DNA from: Microcaldota archaeon
GTDB lineage: Archaea > Micrarchaeota > Micrarchaeia > Burarchaeales > JACRGF01
Length of the DNA stretch: 33,892 nt
Assembly: GCA_016212395.1 (NCBI GenBank)
Contig: JACRGF010000044.1
Span: forward strand, 1 to 33,892
Reading direction: 5' to 3'
Below are positions 1,607-33,716 of this stretch, piece after piece. Under the pieces are notes generated by a model. The model had not been told where the DNA came from, made no database searches, and was given only the letters and a program-made list of their open reading frames with translations. Both the position numbers and the translations under genes were made by a program. Positions within the stretch are counted from its first letter, which is position 1; each line of letters opens with the position of its first letter.

Positions 1607-1672
1607 GGGTTTTTGTTGCTTCGAGAAAGTATTTAATATGCGCGCGAGACAAAAAGGTTAGAGGCGGTTTTG

Positions 1673-1960
1673 ATGAATGAGTTGAGTGAAGAAAACTTGG
1701 TGGAAATTGATAATGTTACTAAGCAAAAGGTGGACGCTACTATAGACTCGATTGAATACGCGTTGCAAGGGTGGGAGAAGGAAAAAAAAACAGGCGCGCA
1801 GTTGTCAGAGAAAATGGAGAAGCTTCAAAAATGGCGTGACGCATTGAAAAAATGGAATGAGACGCACGTGTTCAAAAAAGACGACGAAGCAAGAACTCGG
1901 TTGGAACGCTTGAAAGCGTTTTATGACATTTGCAGGGAATTGGGGGCAGGAGAGAATTAG
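1673..1960 (+). CDS. Small charged helical protein, unknown function
   Basis: ORF MNELSEENLVEIDNVTKQKVDATIDSIEYALQGWEKEKKTG..., adjacent to and co-oriented with the next ORF. Confidence 0.6.
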   Translation: MNELSEENLVEIDNVTKQKVDATIDSIEYALQGWEKEKKTGAQLSEKMEKLQKWRDALKKWNETHVFKKDDEARTRLERLKAFYDICRELGAGEN

Positions 1961-1962
1961 CT

Positions 1963-4900
1963 ATGTGCCCAGTGTTTAAAGGAGCAGAAGAAGCGGAGAA
2001 GCGCGTGAGCGACTTGCAGAGGCTAGTGCAAACTCCGGCGTTCCAGCAGTTGGGGCTTCCGCTTGAAGAAAAAAAAGAAGCGAAAGGGGTAGGGCCTGCG
2101 TCAAGAGCTTCAAATGCTGAAGCGCAAGTGCGAGCATTGGTCGGGCATGCGGGTTCTGCTGTAAAGCCAGTGTTGATCCAAGCTGCAATCCAGCAAGTTG
2201 ATGCAGGCTTGCGCGCTGTCGCGGAAGTAAGGCAAGCTACAGAAACAACGATGGTTGTAGACCGTGAAGTTCTGGGTTATTTTGAAAGACTGCTTCAAGA
2301 CACGAGGGAGAGGCTGCAGGAAGGGGATGCTGGCGCGATAGACGTAGCAATGCTTTACACCGGGTTGTTGAAAGGCTATGTTGAAGCAAGCGCGTCTGTT
2401 CAGGATGCAGGGAGAATAGAACGCGAGGCAGGCTTGCTGCACGGCTCGAAAGCGCGCGAGGCTATTGCAGGGCTTGCTTCAAGCGCGAGAAAACAATTTT
2501 ACGAGTACCAAGAGAGAGTGCGAATGTTTTTGAGAACTCCTGGAAACTCTGAACAACTGGAAGGATTGCTTGAGTTGAACGCTCTTGCTAGTAAAGCAGG
2601 CGTTTCACTTGCGAGGGCCGACGTTTACTTGCAAAAATCGAAGCAGTTTGAGGAAATGTGCGAACAAGCGTCAATTGAATTGAGCAGGCAATCGTCAGAG
2701 TATATTGGAGTGCTTGAAAGAATGAGGAAGAGCGCGCCTGCAGATGAAGATCATGCGGAACTGACGCGTGGACGGTACGAGTACGCGAGCGGTTTTGTTG
2801 ATTTGGTGCGCGATGCAGATGCACAGCTCTCTGCAGCAGTAGAGGGTTACGACCCTTCAAAGTTTTTCAATGCTGACGGCTCGTTCAACGAAGCAAACGA
2901 GCAAATGACAGTATTGAGAAAAGCAGGCGCGATAGTTGAAAGCAGTACTGGAGTGCGCGCGAGTTTTGAAGAGAAAACGTGGCAGGAATTGTTCCAGACA
3001 GAACAAAGAGAAGCGCTTGGTGGATTAACTGCAAGCGCAGTGAGGGGAACGCGCAAGGCGCTTGAAGGAGTGGACAAAGTGCTTGTCCCGAAACTGGGGG
3101 AAGACGGAAAGTTTGAAGGAATGGTTTCAGTTTTTGAAGCAACAGGAAAACAGGAGCTCGCTCGAGAGATTAGGGGAAAGTATGAGGAAGTGCTTGAAGA
3201 ATTAAGCGCGGCGCAAACAGCTTTAGCGCAAGGAAACGAGAGGGAAGCAAGAAGGCACTTGGAGAAAGCGCGCGAACTAGACGGAGAAGCGCAAGCGCTT
3301 TTTAGGGAAGCGAGCTCGAAATACCTGCAGGCTTACAGGGAAGAACGCGGGTACAGAGAGTTAAGCGCTGGAGAGAAAGGCGCGTACTTGTTTTCAAAAT
3401 ATGGGAGTTACGCATGCGACGGGATAGTGATTGGTGCAGGGATTGCTGCTGAAGTTTCAAGCAGCGGGACTGCAACACCGCTTGTGCTCGGCTTGGAAGC
3501 AGCTTACTGGAGCATGCGCGCGGGAAAAGACGTGTACGAAGATTATCAGCGCACAGGAGAACTCTCATGGGCAAAAGTAGGCGAGGGCGCGTTGTTTGCA
3601 GTGCCTGCAGTTGGAAGGTTCGCGAAAGCATACTTTGAATTGTCGAAAGGAGTGCAACTGACGATAAGCATTGCAACAGGAGTTACAAGCTTCGGGCTTG
3701 CAGGATTGGGCGTGTACGGGATAGGAACTGCTGTTGCAAGCGGAATGCGCACAGGGTTTACGAACGAAGAACTAGCAGGCTTGATTGCAGGAGTCGCGCC
3801 AATGGGCTTGGCTTTCAGGGGAGCAGTGCCTGTGATTGCAAAGTGGGGCAAAGAAAAAGTTGCAACGATTGAAATTTACCCAAGGCAGGAAACCCCGACA
3901 GTCAGGGCAGTGGCTGAACCTGCAGGAGCGCAAGTCATTCCATTTCCAAAAACGAGAAGATGGGTTGAAACAGGAAACGCGAGTGGAGAACCGAGAATGC
4001 AAAGACAGGAAGCCGGAGCCGGACCAGTGAGGATGAATGGATGGGAGCGTGGAGCTCAAGTCATTCCATTGAGAACGCCGCGAGAGCAAGTTGAAATGCC
4101 AGTAGTGCGCGAGGCAACGACTGGGCAATCGATAGAAATGCCTGGCGCGCGAGGAGGCAATGCAGAAGCGAGACGCCCTGCATTGAGAGCAGTAGAACCA
4201 ACAGCAAGGAGAAGCACTGCTGAATCCATGAAGCCAGTGGCTGAAGCAGTGCGCAAGGCTACAGGCGTGGAATCCCCTGAGTTGATGAGAGCGCTTGAAG
4301 GGTTCGTGGACGGCGCGGTGAGGGAAGTAAAAGTGTTGAACCCGCGCGAGGGGGGCGGAGTGCTGCGCGTGACGACTGAGAGCGGGCGGAGAGTTTACGT
4401 TAAAATGGTTCAAGGGCAAAAGCAAGCGCAGCAATTGCGGAACGAAGCACTGTTTCAAATAATGGGTGAAAAGGCAGGAGGAAACACGGTGAGAACGCGC
4501 ATTGTCGAGGAGGGAAGGACGACGTTTGCAGTGATGGAAGACGCTGGGACTCCAGTGTCAAGAATGTCAGAGCAGGAGATTGCAAGGCTCTCGCCACGGC
4601 AAAAGCAAGAGCTAGCAAGGCAGATGGGGGAAGACATCGCGCGTTCTTTCATACTAGGTGGAACGGACGTGCACGCGGAACAATTCATGCTCGGCAGGGC
4701 TCCGGGCGGGGGATTGCAGCTTTCGCACGTTGACAACGCGTGCTTAGCGTTCGAGCGAAGGCAAGGCAGGCTGATGGAAAAAACCCCAGCTGAAACACTT
4801 GGCCAAATGTATTCTGAAGTATCACAAGCACTCGGGCTGACAGACGAGGCAGCGCAGTCTGCAATGCGACAAGGGTTCACTGAAGGAATGAACGCAATGC

Positions 4901-5061
4901 GCGAAAGCTTTTCTTCAGGAGCGCTTGAAGCAAGGGCGAGGCTCGGAGAAGAATTTTACAGGCAAAACGAACAAATGCTTCGCGAACTCTACAGCAGGGC
5001 GCAGACAGAGCCTGAAACGGCGTGGAGCAGAATGTACGGATTGACGCTTTCAATGGACTAA
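1963..5061 (+). CDS. Very large helical/membrane-associated protein with C-terminal kinase-like domain
   Basis: ORF of ~1030 aa; long coiled-coil region, hydrophobic central region (GIVIGAGIAAEV..., VTSFGLAGLGVYGIG), C-terminal YVKMV...NEALF...FAVMEDAG...GGTDVHAEQFMLG...LSHVDNACLAF resembling HipA/PI3K-like kinase motifs. Confidence 0.75.
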   Translation: MCPVFKGAEEAEKRVSDLQRLVQTPAFQQLGLPLEEKKEAKGVGPASRASNAEAQVRALVGHAGSAVKPVLIQAAIQQVDAGLRAVAEVRQATETTMVVDREVLGYFERLLQDTRERLQEGDAGAIDVAMLYTGLLKGYVEASASVQDAGRIEREAGLLHGSKAREAIAGLASSARKQFYEYQERVRMFLRTPGNSEQLEGLLELNALASKAGVSLARADVYLQKSKQFEEMCEQASIELSRQSSEYIGVLERMRKSAPADEDHAELTRGRYEYASGFVDLVRDADAQLSAAVEGYDPSKFFNADGSFNEANEQMTVLRKAGAIVESSTGVRASFEEKTWQELFQTEQREALGGLTASAVRGTRKALEGVDKVLVPKLGEDGKFEGMVSVFEATGKQELAREIRGKYEEVLEELSAAQTALAQGNEREARRHLEKARELDGEAQALFREASSKYLQAYREERGYRELSAGEKGAYLFSKYGSYACDGIVIGAGIAAEVSSSGTATPLVLGLEAAYWSMRAGKDVYEDYQRTGELSWAKVGEGALFAVPAVGRFAKAYFELSKGVQLTISIATGVTSFGLAGLGVYGIGTAVASGMRTGFTNEELAGLIAGVAPMGLAFRGAVPVIAKWGKEKVATIEIYPRQETPTVRAVAEPAGAQVIPFPKTRRWVETGNASGEPRMQRQEAGAGPVRMNGWERGAQVIPLRTPREQVEMPVVREATTGQSIEMPGARGGNAEARRPALRAVEPTARRSTAESMKPVAEAVRKATGVESPELMRALEGFVDGAVREVKVLNPREGGGVLRVTTESGRRVYVKMVQGQKQAQQLRNEALFQIMGEKAGGNTVRTRIVEEGRTTFAVMEDAGTPVSRMSEQEIARLSPRQKQELARQMGEDIARSFILGGTDVHAEQFMLGRAPGGGLQLSHVDNACLAFERRQGRLMEKTPAETLGQMYSEVSQALGLTDEAAQSAMRQGFTEGMNAMRESFSSGALEARARLGEEFYRQNEQMLRELYSRAQTEPETAWSRMYGLTLSMD

Positions 5062-5077
5062 ACGTGGAGGTTAAAAC

Positions 5078-5686
5078 GTGAAACAACTCGCGCAAACAAT
5101 TAGACCGCTTGCAGAAAAAAACGTCAGGCCTATGTTTACAGCCGTAGCACAAAGAGTTTTTGAAGCAGGCGAAGGCAGGTTTGCATTAGCAAGAACCCCA
5201 GCAGATTTATTGGCGCAACTCAAGCAGTTCGGCGAGTTTGACAGAGTGCTTGCGCTCGACGCGTTAAAGCGCTCTCCGGACAAGGAAAGCAGGCGCGTTG
5301 CACTGCTTATGACTGAAGATGAAAATGCAGGAGTGGCAAAAAGCGCTGTTCTAGTATGCGGGCAACTCGCTGGAAGCGCTCAAGCACTAAATGAAAAAAA
5401 AGAGTTTCTTGAAGCGCTGGCGAAAGCTTCAGAGAGCGGGATCAGTGAAATTCGCGAGGCAACCGCGCAAGCAATGGCATGGGTTGGCGCTGAAGGCTTG
5501 GAATTGCTGAAAAAACTTTCAAGAGACGCTGAAGACGAAGTGCGAAAACAAGTTGCAACATCATGCAGCGCGATAAAAACGCGCGAATCGCTTGAATTGC
5601 TTAAAGCGATGAAGAACGATAGTGTTGAAGAAGTGCGACAACTAGCAGGAAGACTTGCGACAAGGCTTGAAAAAGAATTGCGCTGA
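5078..5686 (+). CDS. HEAT-repeat protein
   Basis: Repeated helical units SGISEIREATAQAMAWVGAEGLELLKKLSRDAEDEVRKQVATSCSAIKTRESLELLKAMKNDSVEEVRQLAGRLATRLEKEL. Confidence 0.75.
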   Translation: MKQLAQTIRPLAEKNVRPMFTAVAQRVFEAGEGRFALARTPADLLAQLKQFGEFDRVLALDALKRSPDKESRRVALLMTEDENAGVAKSAVLVCGQLAGSAQALNEKKEFLEALAKASESGISEIREATAQAMAWVGAEGLELLKKLSRDAEDEVRKQVATSCSAIKTRESLELLKAMKNDSVEEVRQLAGRLATRLEKELR

Positions 5687-5688
5687 AA

Positions 5689-7098
5689 TTAGACTTGTTT
5701 TAATCCTGAAAGCAACAACTGCATGCTTGCATCTGTTTCCAAGCTGACTTCAACAAATGCGCGGCCACCTGGGTTGGAAGCATGCGTTTGAAGAGTAAGC
5801 GCGAGTCTTGAAAAAGTCGCGTACCCTGTCTTTCCGCATTTGCTGTGCCCTCTTATTAAAACAGTTGAATGCGTGCCTGCAAGAAAAGCGCGCAACACGT
5901 CAGCCCCGAAAAAACGAAAAGCGCCGCGAGTTTCATTTAACGCAAAACCACTCAAACCCTTTTTAGGCTCGTTCCAAACCAGTTGCGCTAGTTTTTCTCC
6001 GTCTAGCGAGGCGAGTTCGGCCAAAGTGAAAACTCCCTGCGGAACTCCACCGTGAAGCACGAGCACGCCGGAACCAGTATGTAACGCGAAAGGAAGGCGG
6101 TCGAACACGCGCTTGTTTACAAGCGAGTACAACCGCTTTCCACCCCTTGCTTTAAACTTTCGTGTTAACTCTTGATCAAATTCTCCGTATTTGTTGGTCG
6201 CTTCTACTTCATGGTCACCGCGCAAGAGAAAAACGTTTTCAGGAAATGCTCGCTTCAAATCGAGAAGCAACGCGAGCACCCCAACGCTTGAATCACCCCG
6301 GTCGATATAATCGCCAAGCGCAACCAGCGAGATTTTTTCTCCGCTTGAAACTCTCTCTACGAAATTTGTTTCAGAAAGCACGCGAAAAAGAGAATCAAAA
6401 TCTCCGTGCAAGTCGCCCACGAAAACAGCTTTGCCTTCACGCGACAATGAAACTAGGCTGCATTCTACTCTGGCGCCAGAATACCCGCGAGTTTTTTGTT
6501 CGTTGGCTAAAATAGATTCCACATCTAAAACCAAATCTTCAAACTGGCGAGCGTCGATTGTCTTGGCAAAGGAAAAAAAATCACTCAGAGTTTTAGGAGT
6601 GTGAGTTATGCTCCGGTAAGTTGGCTTCGCGTCAAATGCAATTCTAGGAAAAACCTCTTGTTCAGCATCATCCAACTCGCGCAGTGAACGGCTACGTGCG
6701 CCTAACAATTTCGCGAAAAAAGCGCCCCCATCTTCCACTGCCGCGCCGCCCGTGTACGAAACACGCAAGTCCTCTCCTACAAGAAAAATAGATCCAACAT
6801 TAGTAGGACTTGACAGAACTGGCCCGGAATACCGAACGTGGTCCAACGTGCCATTCTTCAAGACGATTAAAGCATCTTTGAAAGGAAGCTCGCTGAAAGA
6901 AATGTGAGTGTAAATTCCCCTGCGAACAGTTTTTTGAGCGCCTTGAATTTGCCCGGATTTGTACATGGCGCGCACTGCCCCAAGAAAATCTTTCACTTGC
7001 GCCAACGTTATATTGCCGTTTCGCACCACCCTCCATAATTCTAGCTCGCGTGAGTAATTGCGAGGTTGCAAATCGCGAGGTAGCGCTTGTTTCGACAT
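5689..7098 (-). CDS. PPP-family (eukaryote-like) Ser/Thr protein phosphatase with a ~200-aa uncharacterised N-terminal extension
   Basis: Motifs VFVGDLHGDFD, ALGDYIDRGDSS, LLRGDHEVEATN, LVLHGGVP, VLIRGHSK. Confidence 0.88.
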   Translation of the reverse strand: MSKQALPRDLQPRNYSRELELWRVVRNGNITLAQVKDFLGAVRAMYKSGQIQGAQKTVRRGIYTHISFSELPFKDALIVLKNGTLDHVRYSGPVLSSPTNVGSIFLVGEDLRVSYTGGAAVEDGGAFFAKLLGARSRSLRELDDAEQEVFPRIAFDAKPTYRSITHTPKTLSDFFSFAKTIDARQFEDLVLDVESILANEQKTRGYSGARVECSLVSLSREGKAVFVGDLHGDFDSLFRVLSETNFVERVSSGEKISLVALGDYIDRGDSSVGVLALLLDLKRAFPENVFLLRGDHEVEATNKYGEFDQELTRKFKARGGKRLYSLVNKRVFDRLPFALHTGSGVLVLHGGVPQGVFTLAELASLDGEKLAQLVWNEPKKGLSGFALNETRGAFRFFGADVLRAFLAGTHSTVLIRGHSKCGKTGYATFSRLALTLQTHASNPGGRAFVEVSLETDASMQLLLSGLKQV

Positions 7099-18833: not shown

Positions 18834-19289
18834 ATGCAGTGCCCTTATTGTTCGAGCGCGGACTTGAAGGTTTTGGACTCGCGTGATGTTGAAGAAACTA
18901 ATTCCGTGCGCAGGAGGCGCGAGTGCGACAAATGCGGAAAGCGTTTTACCACTTACGAGCGCGTTGAAGAAGTTGAAGTGTGGGTAGTGAAAAAAAACGG
19001 CACTCGGCAAAGGTTTGACAGGGCGAAACTGCGAGGCGGGATAGAAAAATCCTGCGAGAAAACAAGCGTTCCCCACGAAAAAATAGAGCAAATCGTCGAG
19101 GAAGTGGAGAGGGAACTGCGCGCGAAAGAAAAAACTGAAGTGAAAAGCAAGGAAATAGGCGAAATGGTGATGGGAAAACTCGCTTCAGTCGACAAAGTCG
19201 CGTACATCAGGTTTGCTTCAGTCTACCGCTCGTTCGCAGACGTCAGCTCGTTCAAAAAAGAACTCGAAAAGTTATTAAAGAAAAAGTGA
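18834..19289 (+). CDS. nrdR: NrdR-family transcriptional repressor (zinc ribbon + ATP-cone)
   Basis: MQCPYCSSADLKVLDSRDVEETNSVRRRRECDKCGKRFTTYERVE...YIRFASVYRSFADVSSF. Confidence 0.95.
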   Translation: MQCPYCSSADLKVLDSRDVEETNSVRRRRECDKCGKRFTTYERVEEVEVWVVKKNGTRQRFDRAKLRGGIEKSCEKTSVPHEKIEQIVEEVERELRAKEKTEVKSKEIGEMVMGKLASVDKVAYIRFASVYRSFADVSSFKKELEKLLKKK

Positions 19290-22200
19290 GTAGTAACTCC
19301 AAGCAAAAAACCAAGGGAGTTGAACGAAAAGTGGGAGGAGAACTAGCAACAGTGAGCGCAAAGCACGTGCAAACAACTCGACCCACGCGACAAGCCGCGC
19401 TTCCTCAACAAATGCAACAACCATTAGCAGAAGCAAGAGCAACGCAAACAGAACACGCACTTCAACTCGAACCAACAGCAAGCACAGGAACACGCGAAAC
19501 GCCTGGCGCGCAAACCCAGCAGGCAGCATCAGAAGAATTCAAAGCTAAAGCACTAGAAGCAGCAGAAAAAAACCCTGCTTTTGAAGACAGTGAAAAACTC
19601 GAGAGGGCAGTCAGGCACGCGGAACGCGCTGTGAATTACTACGACATTGAAAAAGTACTTGAAGAACTGGAAAAAGGAACTTTAGCAGGCATTGCGGCAA
19701 AAGCAAGAGTAAGCACAATGCACGAAAGAACCAATAAAGGCAAGAAGAGGATATCAAAAAAAGAATTCGAGCAACAAGCACGCGAACTGGCTGAAAACAA
19801 CCCTGACTTGAAAGGCGACGAGGAGAGGATAAGCAGGGCGTTGGATTACGCGAGGGAAATCGCCGAAGCAACAGGCAATCGGAAAGCGCTTGAAGCATTA
19901 AGCAAAACGCTCCAGCAAATAGGCGCGGTTGCAGGAGCAGCGCGCACGAACAAGCGAGGCTATTATCGTGAAAAACATTACGGCTTGCGTGAAATCCTTG
20001 AGTTCAAGCCAGGATTTTCGCCTGAAGAATACGAAGAAGCAAGGAGATTGCTCGAGTATCTTGAATTGAATTACCCAGAGGAAGCGAACGGGGAAGCGTT
20101 AGAGGTTTTGAGAGCGTGTGAAACGCTTGCAGAATTCCGGCTTGCAGTCAAGGAAGAGCTTGGCGCGAGAGAAAGCAGAGTGCAAGCAGGGGACGCGGGA
20201 GTGGAAGCAAAACAACGCACGTGGAGGGAACGGACAGGGCGCGTGTTGTTCGACCTGGTGCAAGCAAAGTTTGGAATGCACGCGAAAGGAATTTACGCTG
20301 CAAAAAGCGCGCTGGAGAACACGGTGAACGCGTGCAACGGGAACTGGAAACAGCTTGAGGCAGTGTTCGAGCTTGTTGACGAAGCGCGCGGGCCGTACTC
20401 GCTCATGTACAAGCTGAACGAAATGCCGGGCGGAAGCCAAGCGCTTGAAGAACACGAGCCAGCAAAGCGAGGCAAAGCACTGCAAGGCGACGAGGCAAGC
20501 GGTTCGCTGGAAACTGGTGAGAAAGCATTCTTGATTCGCACCCTGCGCCTTTCGAGAGAAGAAGCGAAAGAATTTGCTGAAGGCGACGAGGAAGCGAAGA
20601 GAACTGTTTTTAAGAGGCTGGAGCGAATGCGTTCAAGCGCTGCAGGAGACTCGAAAGCGCTGGAATGCATTGCCTTGCTTAAAGAAAGGTTTTCAATCGG
20701 AAGGCACAAAACAATCACTCGACTGGCTCGAGAAAGAAAAATACGAGTCCATGAAGCGAACCGCTTGCTTTCACTCACAGTTTACTACTTGCAGGATTAC
20801 AAGCTGAACGAAGAAGGAGAAGAACGAAAATTCAAGCAGACAGACAAAGCAATGGACATACTCGCGAAACTCATTAAAGAAGAAAGAAAAGCGCAGAGAG
20901 CGAAAGGAGGCCGAAGCAGATGCTTCGCCACTGACAAGGCGACGACTGGAAAAAACCATCCTGTGAGAAGGCTTGGCAGATGGGGCAGAGTGAGAACGGA
21001 ATATGAAGAAGGGAGAGATGAAAATGGGCGGAGGGAACTCGGTGCGAAAACGCCGAGGCAACAAGCACGCGCGAGAACGCCAGTACAAACTTTGACAAGC
21101 AGGCGACAACCTCCAACAACTGCACAACAACCGCAAGTGCAACAACAAGCAGAAGTTCAACCACTCGCTCAACAAACAAAATCTGCACAACAACCTGCAA
21201 CAACACGCGACCACGCGCAAGCTAATGCACAACAACAAGCAGAACGGGAACCTGAAGAACTCGCGACAGCTGCACTGCAACCACTTGTACAACAACAAGC
21301 AGAACGAGAACAACCAACAGCAGAAGCAACTGACGCGCGACAACCAACACGTGAAACGCAAGGCGAACGCAGAACACTGCATACGCAGGCACTGTAGTAA
21401 GAAGAACAGTTGCAACTGCACAATCAGCAACACTCGAACAACCAACTGCAGAAACAACGCAAGCGCGACTTCCAGCTCAACGCGAAAGCGCGCAGCCAGA
21501 ACAAGAGCCAACAAAAACCAGAGTAGAACCACAAGCACAACCTCGAGCAGAACGAGAACCTGAAGAACTCGCGCAAGGGGGTATAGCACATGCAGCACTT
21601 CAAACAGCAGAGTTGCATGAACGCGCGCCAGTTGCAGTTGAAGCAGAACCTGCAATCCAGGCACGAGTTGGAGCAGAAGCAGCGTTGGTAGCTGTTGCGC
21701 CAGTTGAGTTGGAAGCACAATGGGTAGAAGCATTTATGCGAGAAGCAGCGCGAACGCTGAAAGCTAAAGGGATGGCTGGATACAAGCTGATGGAAGCGCT
21801 ATGCGTGGCTGGACAATTGCTGAAATTACAGGAACGAAAAAATCGCTTGAAGTAGTTGGAAGAGCAGCGAACGTAAGAAGCCTGCGGAAAATGCTGGGGA
21901 ACATTAGAAAACAAAACGAACGGGAACGCACAGGCAAACAGTTTCCAGCGCCGGAACCCACAAGAGCATTGCCCGCACCGACGGCAATAGAAAGAACTGC
22001 TTCAAGAGAAATTCAAGCAGAAGGGCTGATGAAAGGAACGCGAACGGTTGAAGAACAAGAAAGAAAAAGCAGGGGAACAACAAGCACAAAAGAAGAAGAT
22101 TCAACTCCTAAAAAAAGCGGGCTTGAAAGAAAAAGCACGGGAAACGAGAGTTCCCTGCCAACAGCACGCGAGCCTGAAAAAGAAAACGCTGGAGCAAAAA

Positions 22201-22838
22201 GCGCGAGAGAAAAAGTTTCAGTTCTTGAGCGTGAACCTGAAAGAAAAAATCTTGAAGTTGCAGTTGAAAGTTTTTCGCTTGAAAGAGTGCTTGAAGCGTT
22301 GAGCTTGAACGGAAGCGGGAACGACGCAATATTGGCAGAGGCAGTGCGGCGCGTGAAAAGCGAAACAGGCGCGTTCGATTTACTGGCTGGAACGCACGAA
22401 TCGGAAGCGAAAGCGTTAGAGCACGTGTTCGGCTTGAACACGGAAAAGAAAACAGTTCCGGAAGCGTGCGACGCGTTGAGCAACGAAGGCGAACGCGCAA
22501 CTCCGAAAGAGTTGGTTGAAAAAGGGTTGCAAGTGTTGCGCGAGGCATTAGTGTTCGACGCGCTCACGTGCGACGACAGTATAAACGGAAGCTTGGAGCG
22601 CAGGCGCGAAGCACTGCAAGTCATGCGAGCGCGTGGCGCGATGCAGAAGTTGAGGAAGACAGACGCGCTCGCGTTCGAAGTGCTGGCGCGCAGGTACTTA
22701 GGCGCAGGCGAAGTTCTTTCACTCCAGCAAGTCGCGAAACAGCTTCACGAAGAAAGCGTTACTAAAAGGCTCGCGGGAACGCAGTACGTTAGAATAATTG
22801 AAAAGAGAGGCGTGGACGAACTGCTGGACAGCACGTAG
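19286..22838 (+). CDS. Giant Q/E/A/R-rich protein encoded in three successive frames (19286-21397, ~21352-21855, 21801-22838); HTH-like segments and sigma-70 r4-like C-terminus
   Basis: Same composition and repeated phrases (AEREPEELA...AALQ) across the frame 2 to frame 1 junction; frame 1 reads through to KGMAGYKLMEALCV, continued in frame 3 by RGWTIAEITGTKKSLEVVGRAANVRSLRKML. Confidence 0.6.
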
Positions 22839-22903: not shown

Positions 22904-23485
22904 ATGCATGAAGCAGCTGAAAAAGCAAGCGTGAGGCATGCGGCGAGAGTTGAAAGGGCTAGTTTTGCAAGGAAGATTCCTTTAGTTGGGCGCTTGATGC
23001 GCGGGATTCTCGCGCGCAAGGCGAATAGAAGGTATAAAGTGATTGCACTGCTCAGAAAAAAGGAAGGGAAGGAACTGTTCGAAGCTTTAGAGTTTTTTTT
23101 GAAGAGCAGGAACGAGTTCGAGCGCGCAGGCGCGTGCCACTATCTAGTAGCGTTCGGCGGGAAGGAAATAATTCCAGTGTTGAGAGAGCTTGTTGAAAGC
23201 AAGGATGACGTGACGCGCGGTTTTTACGAGTTGTTCTTGTGCAGGCTGTTCATGCTTGGAGACTTCAGCTTGGAAGTTCTCGAGAGAGCTCGGCAGATTC
23301 TCACTGCAAACGAGCAGGAAAACGCGTTCAGGCATGAAATGCTGAGAATACTATCAGAAATAGAAAGCGCGCGCGCAGGGCAATTCCGAATCATGCTGGC
23401 AGGAGGCACTTCGAGAGAAGAAAACGCTCAGGAATTAAGGCGAGTTGGAGCGTTGATGATATCAAACGCCTTGGCAAGAAGATAA
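22904..23485 (+). CDS. Helical (HEAT-like) protein, unknown
   Basis: MHEAAEKASVRHAARVERASFARKIPLVGRLMRG...NEFERAGACHYLVAFGGKEIIPVLRELVESKDDVTRGFYELFLCRLF; TATA-like aagtatttaaacg upstream. Confidence 0.65.
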   Translation: MHEAAEKASVRHAARVERASFARKIPLVGRLMRGILARKANRRYKVIALLRKKEGKELFEALEFFLKSRNEFERAGACHYLVAFGGKEIIPVLRELVESKDDVTRGFYELFLCRLFMLGDFSLEVLERARQILTANEQENAFRHEMLRILSEIESARAGQFRIMLAGGTSREENAQELRRVGALMISNALARR

Positions 23486-30645: not shown

Positions 30646-32940
30646 TCAACGTCTTGTTGGCCTATACCTGCGGATTGCGTCGCTTGCACTATCAAGCATG
30701 CCAAGAATTGATTCTTCGAAGGCTTCTGATTCTAAACCTCTGACAGAAACTTCCCCGTTCTCAAAAGTTATTGCTATTTCATCACTTGCACTCATGCGGA
30801 CATGGAATGCATACTCATCGTCTATGTAAAAACTTCTTTGGTATTCCCAATCACCTGGCAAACTCAAAACTACTCGCCCGTTGGTGATTCTATCGTTTAT
30901 GCCCAACTCACCTTCGATCTCACGTTCGATACTTTCAATTCGTAGAGTTTTATTAGTAGTTTCCCCAGGATCATTACCATTCTGGAATGAACTGCTATCC
31001 CAAGTCATTTCTGCGTCTGTGCCTCCTCCTTCCTGCAAGGCATACTGTGCGGATTCAAGCGTTAAGCCGTACCGGGCACCAAGCGCGTATATTGCCAGTG
31101 TGAGAAATGTTCTTCCGCATTGGTTTGAGGGATACATTCGCTCCTCAGGGCTTAAACTGTTCCAATATTGCGTGAAATCCTCAGCAATGTTGTGTAATAG
31201 TGCTAATGCGATTTGTTGGTGTTCTAGGTTATAACTTTCATAATCAAGCGAATTTAGCACTATAAAATGGGTGTGGTATCTGCTTATAATGTGCGCATAA
31301 TCACTGCCCAGCGCTGTTTCCAATAAATCCCGAACATCAAATTCGTGGACGGTTAACACACCAGACCAACTAGCAAGCTTTGAACTATTATAGGACTGCT
31401 CGAGAAATGATGAATCTTCTTGCTGGTTATACCTGTTGCGGAATTGCTTGAGATGCTCGCCATAAATGAGATGCATTGATTCATCGTGCTGGTCTATTAA
31501 TTGCTGGACGTCTACCACACCGTATTGTTCCATTTCTCCTAAAAGGCGAACTGTAAGCAACATTATCATGGCGTCTTGTTGCACGTAATTGAAACCATGT
31601 ATTAATCCGTTCAAGTAATACAGAATCATTTCAGCATATGATCGACCAGTTATGTCTGAAATTTCTTCAGGCATATTCACTTCACCACTCCGGAGTAGGT
31701 AACCAAAGAATTTTTCAGGCCCTAAAACATGCAGCAAAATCATGGATAGGTTTACGTGCGGACCGTATACTATCCCAGGATGTGTTATCTCTCCGTTGGC
31801 TAAACTTATAATTAGCGTTAACATTTCAGTAGAACCTTCAGACAAGATGCCCCCATTCCAGGAGTCTGTTTCTTCAGTTTCTGAATTCAAGCTAGAAACA
31901 GTGGTCAAGAACACGTGCCCAAACTCATGTAAAACAGTGCGTTTCCAATATTCTCTTCCTTCTCGAGTCGCTAGATCCCAATCAGCAATTTTTATGTTTG
32001 GATATACGCCCTGACACCAGGTTCCATCTCTGTGAATAACAACGTGGATATTACTCAACATTTCGTTCAATGCAGTATCGTCTATTAGACCGCGGATGTT
32101 TACTTCAAACCCCATCATCAATAATCCGTCAGTTAACCACGTAATGTAATTCTCTTTCACTTCTGTCAAGAATTCATTTATTGTTCTAGCTTGATCTGAA
32201 ACAGCTGCCAGGTCTATCTCAACGATTCCACCGTATTCTCTGAATTCTACACTTGATTTTTCTGCAATTCTATAAACTCTCGCGATCGGATGAAAACAAT
32301 AAACTTCTTGGGTTTCGGGATTATAGTAGACATGATTAGTAATTACGCGTGGAGTTCGTATCCCGCTGGAAGATCCTTGTTCAACATAAAGCAATTCGCC
32401 GCTTATCTCTCTCACATTGCCGTCTTCATCCACTACACCTAAGGGGTGTGTGGCAGGAACAGTTTCAATTGAAAACGCTATTTTAGAATGTCGGGGAAGT
32501 TCTATTTTTCTTTGCATTCTCACTATTTGCACGCTCACTTCGTCAGTCTTCGTTGGTGTTTCTTCTCTGAAAAAATTGAACAGAATAGAATCGTATTGCA
32601 TAGTCTTTTTGTTTTGATGATTTATTTGCTGGATGCTTCTTTTAACTGAGTCAAGTTTTATCACGGACTTTATAAATACTGTGAGCTTTCTCGCTTCTCG
32701 AGGTTTCTTCGTTTTGTAAATCCGTAAAAGCCCAGAAAGTTCGTTATACTTGTATGCGAATAACTCTGAAATTCTTAGTATTAGCCGTTCTCTTTCAACA
32801 GAAAAATTTCTGCCGTTCAAAAGTGGATCGCCCAGAAATTCTTTTCTGAAAGTTTTTTCGTCATTAGTTAAAATGAGAAGCGTTCTTCTGCTGAAAAGCT
32901 TCTCTAATTCGTCCATTGCGTTACTTTTTCTTTTTAGCAT
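30646..32940 (-). CDS. Large zinc metallopeptidase-like protein (HEXXH), no obvious signal peptide
   Basis: TVLHEFGHVFLTTV with downstream EGSTEML, consistent with a gluzincin-type arrangement; start MLKRKSNAMDELEK. Confidence 0.75.
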   Translation of the reverse strand: MLKRKSNAMDELEKLFSRRTLLILTNDEKTFRKEFLGDPLLNGRNFSVERERLILRISELFAYKYNELSGLLRIYKTKKPREARKLTVFIKSVIKLDSVKRSIQQINHQNKKTMQYDSILFNFFREETPTKTDEVSVQIVRMQRKIELPRHSKIAFSIETVPATHPLGVVDEDGNVREISGELLYVEQGSSSGIRTPRVITNHVYYNPETQEVYCFHPIARVYRIAEKSSVEFREYGGIVEIDLAAVSDQARTINEFLTEVKENYITWLTDGLLMMGFEVNIRGLIDDTALNEMLSNIHVVIHRDGTWCQGVYPNIKIADWDLATREGREYWKRTVLHEFGHVFLTTVSSLNSETEETDSWNGGILSEGSTEMLTLIISLANGEITHPGIVYGPHVNLSMILLHVLGPEKFFGYLLRSGEVNMPEEISDITGRSYAEMILYYLNGLIHGFNYVQQDAMIMLLTVRLLGEMEQYGVVDVQQLIDQHDESMHLIYGEHLKQFRNRYNQQEDSSFLEQSYNSSKLASWSGVLTVHEFDVRDLLETALGSDYAHIISRYHTHFIVLNSLDYESYNLEHQQIALALLHNIAEDFTQYWNSLSPEERMYPSNQCGRTFLTLAIYALGARYGLTLESAQYALQEGGGTDAEMTWDSSSFQNGNDPGETTNKTLRIESIEREIEGELGINDRITNGRVVLSLPGDWEYQRSFYIDDEYAFHVRMSASDEIAITFENGEVSVRGLESEAFEESILGMLDSASDAIRRYRPTRR

Positions 32941-32942
32941 CG

Positions 32943-33716
32943 TCAATTCACCTTGCTCGTCCCATTCGGAAGAACTTGAAGCAGCTCGTCTATTTCGCAC
33001 TCGAATTTTTTCGCTAATTCCTTCGCGAGCTCGCCTTTCTCTTTTCTTCCGCCTGGCGTTAGGGAAACGAATTTGTCGAAGCGCGCGCTTCCTGCTTTCT
33101 CTGGAGCGCATACTACTCCGCTCGCACTCACTCCAACAAGCACGCCCAGCCCAGTTCCCTTGAACCACTTGCGTTCTCCGGCAATCGCGAACGCGCCCCG
33201 CCCAATGAAGCCGCTCATTGATTTCTTGCCAACTTGCTCTTTCTTTACAGCGTAAACGTCAACAGCAGCGTTCCCGATCCTCCACGCGTTCGAGTAGGAA
33301 GCGGCAAACTGCGCTGCTTCCTCAAGAGTCCGCTCTGGCGCAGTAACGCCTTGCTTTATTACAGTGGCAGCGCCTCCTTGAATGTCAGCATGCAAAAACA
33401 AGTCGCCTTCAACGCAGTACTTCGAGAAAACCAAATCGTTCTGGCCGGCATCCCTGCCAGCAATAACGAGGAAACCGTCGCTCGAGAAAAACCAGCGGAA
33501 TTTTTCAAACCACTCGTTATTTCTCTTTACCCTAATTTTTGATTTCTCTTTACCCTCAAATTTCGCAATCTTTTTTTCAAGCTCTGCCAACTGCCTGCGA
33601 GTTTCTTCAAGCGCCTTTTCAGCGCCCTTAGCCTTTTCGCGCAGCTTCTTCGCCTCATCGTAATAAACAGCAGCGTTCTCGTTCAAATCCCTGCGCACGT
33701 CTAATTCGATCTTCAT
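32943..33716 (-). CDS. Stand-alone NFACT-R (DUF814) domain protein related to RqcH/NEMF C-terminus
   Basis: KFRWFFSSDGFLVIAGRDAGQNDLVFSKYCVEGDLFLHADIQGGAATVIK, AAQFAASYSNAWRIG, DVYAVKKEQVGKKSMSGFIGRGAFAIAGERKWF. Confidence 0.85.
   Translation of the reverse strand: MKIELDVRRDLNENAAVYYDEAKKLREKAKGAEKALEETRRQLAELEKKIAKFEGKEKSKIRVKRNNEWFEKFRWFFSSDGFLVIAGRDAGQNDLVFSKYCVEGDLFLHADIQGGAATVIKQGVTAPERTLEEAAQFAASYSNAWRIGNAAVDVYAVKKEQVGKKSMSGFIGRGAFAIAGERKWFKGTGLGVLVGVSASGVVCAPEKAGSARFDKFVSLTPGGRKEKGELAKELAKKFECEIDELLQVLPNGTSKVN

Follow-up and report, generated by a model that had tools for sequence, protein, structure and literature searches.

Giant proteins have been described in nanohaloarchaea, whose SPEARE proteins combine a Sec signal, Ig-like repeats and a VirB4-like ATPase (PMC10266531). 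In bacteria, chaperone-effector pairs and polymorphic toxin systems set a small gene beside that of a large protein whose enzymatic domains can be swapped (PMC3482391). Micrarchaeota are host-dependent symbionts (PMC8975820), and the tiny archaeon studied here is probably symbiotic as well. The effects of DPANN archaea on their hosts are largely open. The locus described below belongs to a module that offers concrete, testable candidates for such effects: it is lineage-specific and multiplied, and consists of a small partner protein together with giants bearing kinase-like or phosphatase domains, and also with stand-alone proteases. No description of this small/giant module was found in the literature searched, which covered few subscription journals or preprints.

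The window, i.e., the whole stretch of DNA that was analyzed (33,892 nucleotides), is an entire contig (C36) of a Micrarchaeota MAG of 1.37 Mb in 67 contigs; the DPANN affiliation assumed in a preliminary description of this DNA is therefore correct. As that description had it, three co-directional ORFs face a convergent phosphatase gene. The first ORF (positions 1670-1960, plus strand) encodes a 95-aa protein from the ATG at 1673 (1673-1960), which belongs to the family described below. The second encodes a giant protein of 1032 aa (1963-5061, plus strand); its likely ATG, at 1963, lies 2 nt past the stop of the small gene, while the frame is open from a TTG at 1930. The third encodes a 202-aa HEAT-repeat protein (5078-5686, plus strand), identified as such in the preliminary description and matching Pfam HEAT_2 at E 4.5e-11. 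The phosphatase gene (5689-7098, minus strand) encodes a 469-aa protein of the PPP family (Pfam Metallophos, E 6.8e-19), and faces the HEAT gene across a gap of 2 nt. Direct reading of the sequence suggests a TATA-like box, TATTTAATA, 5' of the small gene (1630-1638, plus strand), and reveals Shine-Dalgarno-like sequences in front of the small gene (GAGGCGG, 1661-1667, plus strand) and of the HEAT gene (GGAGG). These elements, and the minimal gene spacing, are consistent with the small, giant and HEAT genes forming one operon.

The conserved partner of the giant gene is the small ORF and not the phosphatase gene, a relation that the preliminary description had missed. A homologue of the small ORF, found by Blast in the fetched loci, lies directly upstream of the gene for a 5183-aa giant in another genome (G028), overlapping the GTG start of that giant. 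Using a two-sequence profile, the small family was detected in 43 out of 301 Micrarchaeota genomes at E<=0.1 and in 27 at E<=1e-5, the latter being 26 genomes of family f8 and the window genome; with the window pair set aside, every confident case falls within a single GTDB family. The gene is present in up to 10 copies per genome, and in a single copy in the window genome. A 38-sequence profile that contained no row from the window recovered the window small ORF at E 3.5e-22 among 431 window frames. The protein is predicted by AlphaFold to be a three-helix bundle (pLDDT 87). A search with this fold yielded no PDB match at E<=0.001, and Pfam, NCBIfam and PHROGs scans gave no identification.

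The small gene and its partner gene are paired, multiplied within genomes, and co-inherited. In 31 of 41 loci, the ORF that follows the small gene is at least 800 aa long (range 800-8600 aa); within the stretches fetched, partners reach as much as 6300 aa, and one measures 8609 aa in full. A ca. 370-aa HExxH metalloprotease follows the small gene in six loci; in the remaining ones, the partner ORF is cut by the sequence end (three loci) or is ca. 400 aa long (one locus). The partner starts no more than 10 nt from the stop of the small gene in 33 of 41 cases. As a control, one uniform rule was applied to the small genes and to 170 other genes encoding 80-200-aa proteins in the fetched loci. A next gene of at least 800 aa was observed for 18 of 28 small genes versus none of the 170 others, and one of at least 340 aa for 27 of 28 versus 18 of 170. 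Similarity among small proteins correlates with similarity among the N-termini of their partners (Mantel 0.305, 0/2000 permutations). When the small proteins are grouped, those that precede proteases fall into a single group, and so do most members from a conserved four-gene locus; the window protein joins the small proteins that accompany two giants with PPP domains (96/96, on long branches).

Several variants of this arrangement were observed. At one locus (L107, G031:C20), several units of small gene plus metalloprotease gene stand in tandem. At six loci of genus g19 (L095, L099, L101, L104, L110 and L115), the order is small gene, first giant, GDSL protein and second giant; the GDSL lipase domain was recognized at E 9.5e-25 in L104, and the second giant has a signal-like hydrophobic N-terminus. 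The window itself encodes, at 30646-33168 on the minus strand, an 840-aa protein with a zinc-metalloprotease motif (HEFGH...SEGSTEM) and no Pfam annotation. It looks similar to the proteases that follow small genes, but the match (E 0.16) was not accepted as evidence of kinship.

PPP and kinase-like domains are passengers of these large proteins. PPP domains are present in giants of five genomes according to Pfam (G043, G041, G031, G032 and G021), and a local profile adds one in the 8609-aa giant of G027, bringing the number of genomes with PPP giants to six; the metal-binding motifs are intact in several of them. A kinase-like domain is encoded behind a small gene in G028 and in the window. 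Two further kinase proteins, those of G007 and G005, have no small gene upstream, and a third, that of G098, starts near a contig end. No giant with both kinase and PPP domains was seen. Since the two kinds of domain are alternative passengers of the giant-protein system in relatives, the link between kinase and phosphatase that the preliminary description had drawn receives indirect support.

The kinase-like passenger of the window giant is encoded at 4297-4920 (plus strand). The motifs listed for this region in the preliminary description, YVKMV, NEALF, GGTDVHAEQFMLG and HVDNACLAF, are all found in the giant ORF. No Pfam model matches the C-terminus at E<=10, and the domain has no significant match to Pfam, NCBIfam or PHROGs kinase models. 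A single-sequence search of the 301 genomes revealed a relative in a 1060-aa frame of G039 (E 3.5e-6), and the giant frame is therefore not a chance one; a search from the G039 sequence revealed a second relative, in the 5183-aa frame of G028 (E 6.4e-36). The single-sequence search also gave other weak matches in the phylum (L004-L013); most of these lie in antisense or unrelated frames, and they were not retained. Elsewhere in the G028 giant, another kinase-like stretch, RLFVKME...DRAPRNTAV...PIDMD, lies around residues 1240-1480 of the 3058 aa that were fetched (L018); a 6317-aa giant of G027 contains a relative of it (L098, E 4.9e-40).

A fold prediction had been proposed earlier as a check of the C-terminus. 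AlphaFold, run with the three-sequence alignment, produced the strand and helix order of kinases at low confidence (pLDDT 55, pTM 0.49). Foldseek comparison of this model with the PDB gave 248 matches at E<=0.001 (best E 2.6e-5), and the matches listed were all of the kinase family except one ribosomal particle entry, but TM-scores of about 0.2 indicate poor global agreement. When the three-sequence profile was run against all PDB sequences, 54 out of 55 matches were PI3K catalytic subunits (best E 0.03), with the alignment falling at the catalytic loop (LGIGDRHSDNIMVKKTG..LFHIDFG). A broader profile, A6, matched HipT, HipA/HipA_C, DNA-PKcs, TOR2 and PI3K at the same loop. None of the PDB sequence matches, with either profile, is individually significant. 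A phylum profile search added the C-terminal domains of 1100-1465-aa proteins from G098, which belongs to the same order as the window genome, G007 and G005 (re-scored E about 1e-6). A β3 Lys (FLK, LIK, YLK), a catalytic Asp...Asn and R-I-D are visible in these domains. The catalytic-loop Asp (D133) and the metal-binding Asp (D155) are invariant in all six sequences. We conclude that residues ca. 790-990 of the giant very probably adopt a HipA/PI3K-type kinase fold, as the preliminary description had suspected from the motifs.

Whether the predicted window domain is an active kinase is uncertain, because its catalytic loop, DVHAEQ, carries Gln in place of Asn. This substitution, already pointed out in the preliminary description, is real; Asn occupies the position in all five relatives of alignment A6. 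The window copy keeps the Lys (YVKMV), the loop Asp and His, and the metal Asp (HVDN). The β3 Lys is present in the window, G098, G007 and G005 domains, and is missing from the G039 domain and the main G028 domain. Given the window Gln and the absence of the β3 Lys in G039 and the main G028 domain, some copies of the domain may be pseudokinases.

The rest of the window giant consists of a long helical N-terminal region of ca. 470 aa (1963-3370, plus strand), with no match in the 301 genomes, and of a hydrophobic middle segment (3388-3879, plus strand). Hydropathy suggests that the latter may be a membrane region, with a TM-like window at residues 618-637 of the giant frame; several other giants have comparable hydrophobic segments. 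Similarity of the N-terminus and hydrophobic middle to other giants was no better than that obtained with reversed or shuffled sequences, and was rejected as homology. No Sec signal, Ig-like repeats or VirB4/TraG-like ATPase were found in the window giant or in the relatives scanned (with Pfam for the domains), and no export signal, secretion gene or secretion apparatus was identified. Relatives of the locus that carry a name in genome_contigs belong to Candidatus Micrarchaeota: a single-sequence scan of this collection gave no match, and a scan with an alignment gave two already known Micrarchaeota loci and nothing else. Scans of viral_contigs and phages gave no match.

The motifs reported earlier for the phosphatase, GDLHGD, GDYIDRG, LRGDHE and HGG, were likewise found in the PPP ORF. 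Its catalytic core aligns to PP1-type enzymes, which are the nearest PDB chains (E 5.6e-23). The GDHE element, an Asn to Asp variant of GNHE, is common to the window protein and two relatives (L037 and L041), and the three may represent a sub-family in which a metal ligand is altered. The N-terminal extension of ca. 205 aa has no detected relative. In 15 genomes with relatives of the phosphatase, neither HEAT nor giant genes adjoin these relatives within the fetched stretches. A search of 16 genomes from the order returned no match to the HEAT gene, and ca. 220-aa genes downstream of the G098, G007 and G005 kinase genes, considered as candidates, are not relatives of the window HEAT protein. 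The window encodes a second HEAT-like protein (22904-23485, plus strand; HEAT_2 1.5e-5, just below the cut-off); upstream of it lie two low-complexity ORFs (19286-21397 and 21801-22838), for which no Pfam domain exceeded the cut-off.

We favor, with a probability of about one half, the view that the locus is a compact two-gene Micrarchaeota module, in which a small chaperone or adaptor accompanies a giant with swappable catalytic domains. The gene of the three-helix protein would be translationally coupled to that of the very large multidomain protein, and the small protein would bind its own giant at the N-terminal part as this emerges. The hydrophobic middle may then place the giant in or across a membrane, and the enzymatic domain could phosphorylate, or otherwise nucleotidyl-modify, proteins or lipids, possibly in a partner archaeon. 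The window passenger would be the PI3K/HipA-like domain, and the separate neighboring PPP, a kind of domain fused into giants elsewhere, could reverse the modification. Export of the putative effector to a host is plausible, and delivery is attractive as a candidate reading because of the host-dependent lifestyle of Micrarchaeota. The stronger proposal, that a dedicated system of small chaperones and giant effectors, unrelated to the secretion-associated pairs described so far, delivers PI3K-like kinases, PPP phosphatases and metalloproteases into the host archaeon to manipulate its phospho-signaling, is tentative and doubtful.

Three other explanations were weighed. The preliminary description had envisaged a kinase/phosphatase switch with HEAT scaffolding. 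In such a switch, operating inside the cell, a target would be phosphorylated by the giant, the PPP enzyme would reverse the reaction, and the small protein would be incidental. The four genes are adjacent, the assignments as kinase-like and as PPP stand, members of this giant family also carry PPP domains, and the small protein of the window clusters, on the long branches noted above, with partners of PPP-bearing giants. However, inspection of gene neighborhoods, suggested earlier as a test, showed that it is the small ORF and the large gene that stay together, but not the kinase/HEAT/PPP island: PPP relatives occur apart from giant and HEAT genes, and the HEAT gene was not found elsewhere in the order. 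The PPP gene is also convergent and outside the operon, and the switch leaves the small-giant pairing unexplained. A conserved switch is not supported by the neighborhoods, and we consider this explanation quite improbable.

Alternatively, the giants could be envelope or cytoskeleton-like scaffolds, with the small protein as a structural subunit and the catalytic domains decorative and in some cases dead. This would agree with the paucity of Pfam hits and the hydrophobic segments of giants, with the GDSL hydrolase and the second giant, with its signal-like N-terminus, at the conserved locus of one genus, and with the degenerate kinase residues of some copies; stand-alone metalloproteases of ca. 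370 aa that share the small partner are, however, ill-suited to a purely structural role, and several giants retain PPP domains with intact metal-binding motifs. We regard this explanation as unlikely. Very unlikely, in our opinion, is a system of polymorphic toxins with the small helical protein as immunity protein or antitoxin. The fast variation of C-terminal domains, the multiple copies per genome and the tandem small/protease units would fit it. Against it, the small gene is upstream, and one family serves unrelated partner domains (kinase, PPP and metalloprotease), whereas an immunity protein as a rule corresponds to the domain of its toxin. The similarity of small proteins tracks the N-terminus of the partner.

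The catalytic domains of the module can be placed among known enzymes. Like members of the HipA/PI3K-PIKK superfamily, the kinase domain has the loop D-x-H-x-x-(N) followed by I-D, the kinase fold order and, in some copies (window, G098, G007 and G005), a β3 Lys (FLK, LIK, YLK or YVK); unlike them, it stands at the C-terminus of large proteins, and the window copy has the Gln substitution in its loop. HipA/PI3K-like kinase folds would thereby be extended to archaeal giants that current family models miss. The window PPP resembles PP1-like enzymes across the catalytic core, and departs from them in its GDHE element and N-terminal extension. With SPEARE, which are proposed to act on the host, the giants share their size and their occurrence in DPANN symbionts, but they have a small partner gene upstream and showed none of the SPEARE hallmarks (PMC10266531). 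Compared with bacterial chaperone-effector pairs and polymorphic toxin systems, the Micrarchaeota sequences are unrelated, no secretion apparatus was found, and the small partner is a predicted three-helix bundle without a PDB or Pfam relative; yet here, too, a small gene, adjacent and co-inherited, accompanies a large protein whose enzymatic domains are exchanged (PMC3482391), an arrangement that hints at a dedicated handling or delivery route for signaling enzymes.
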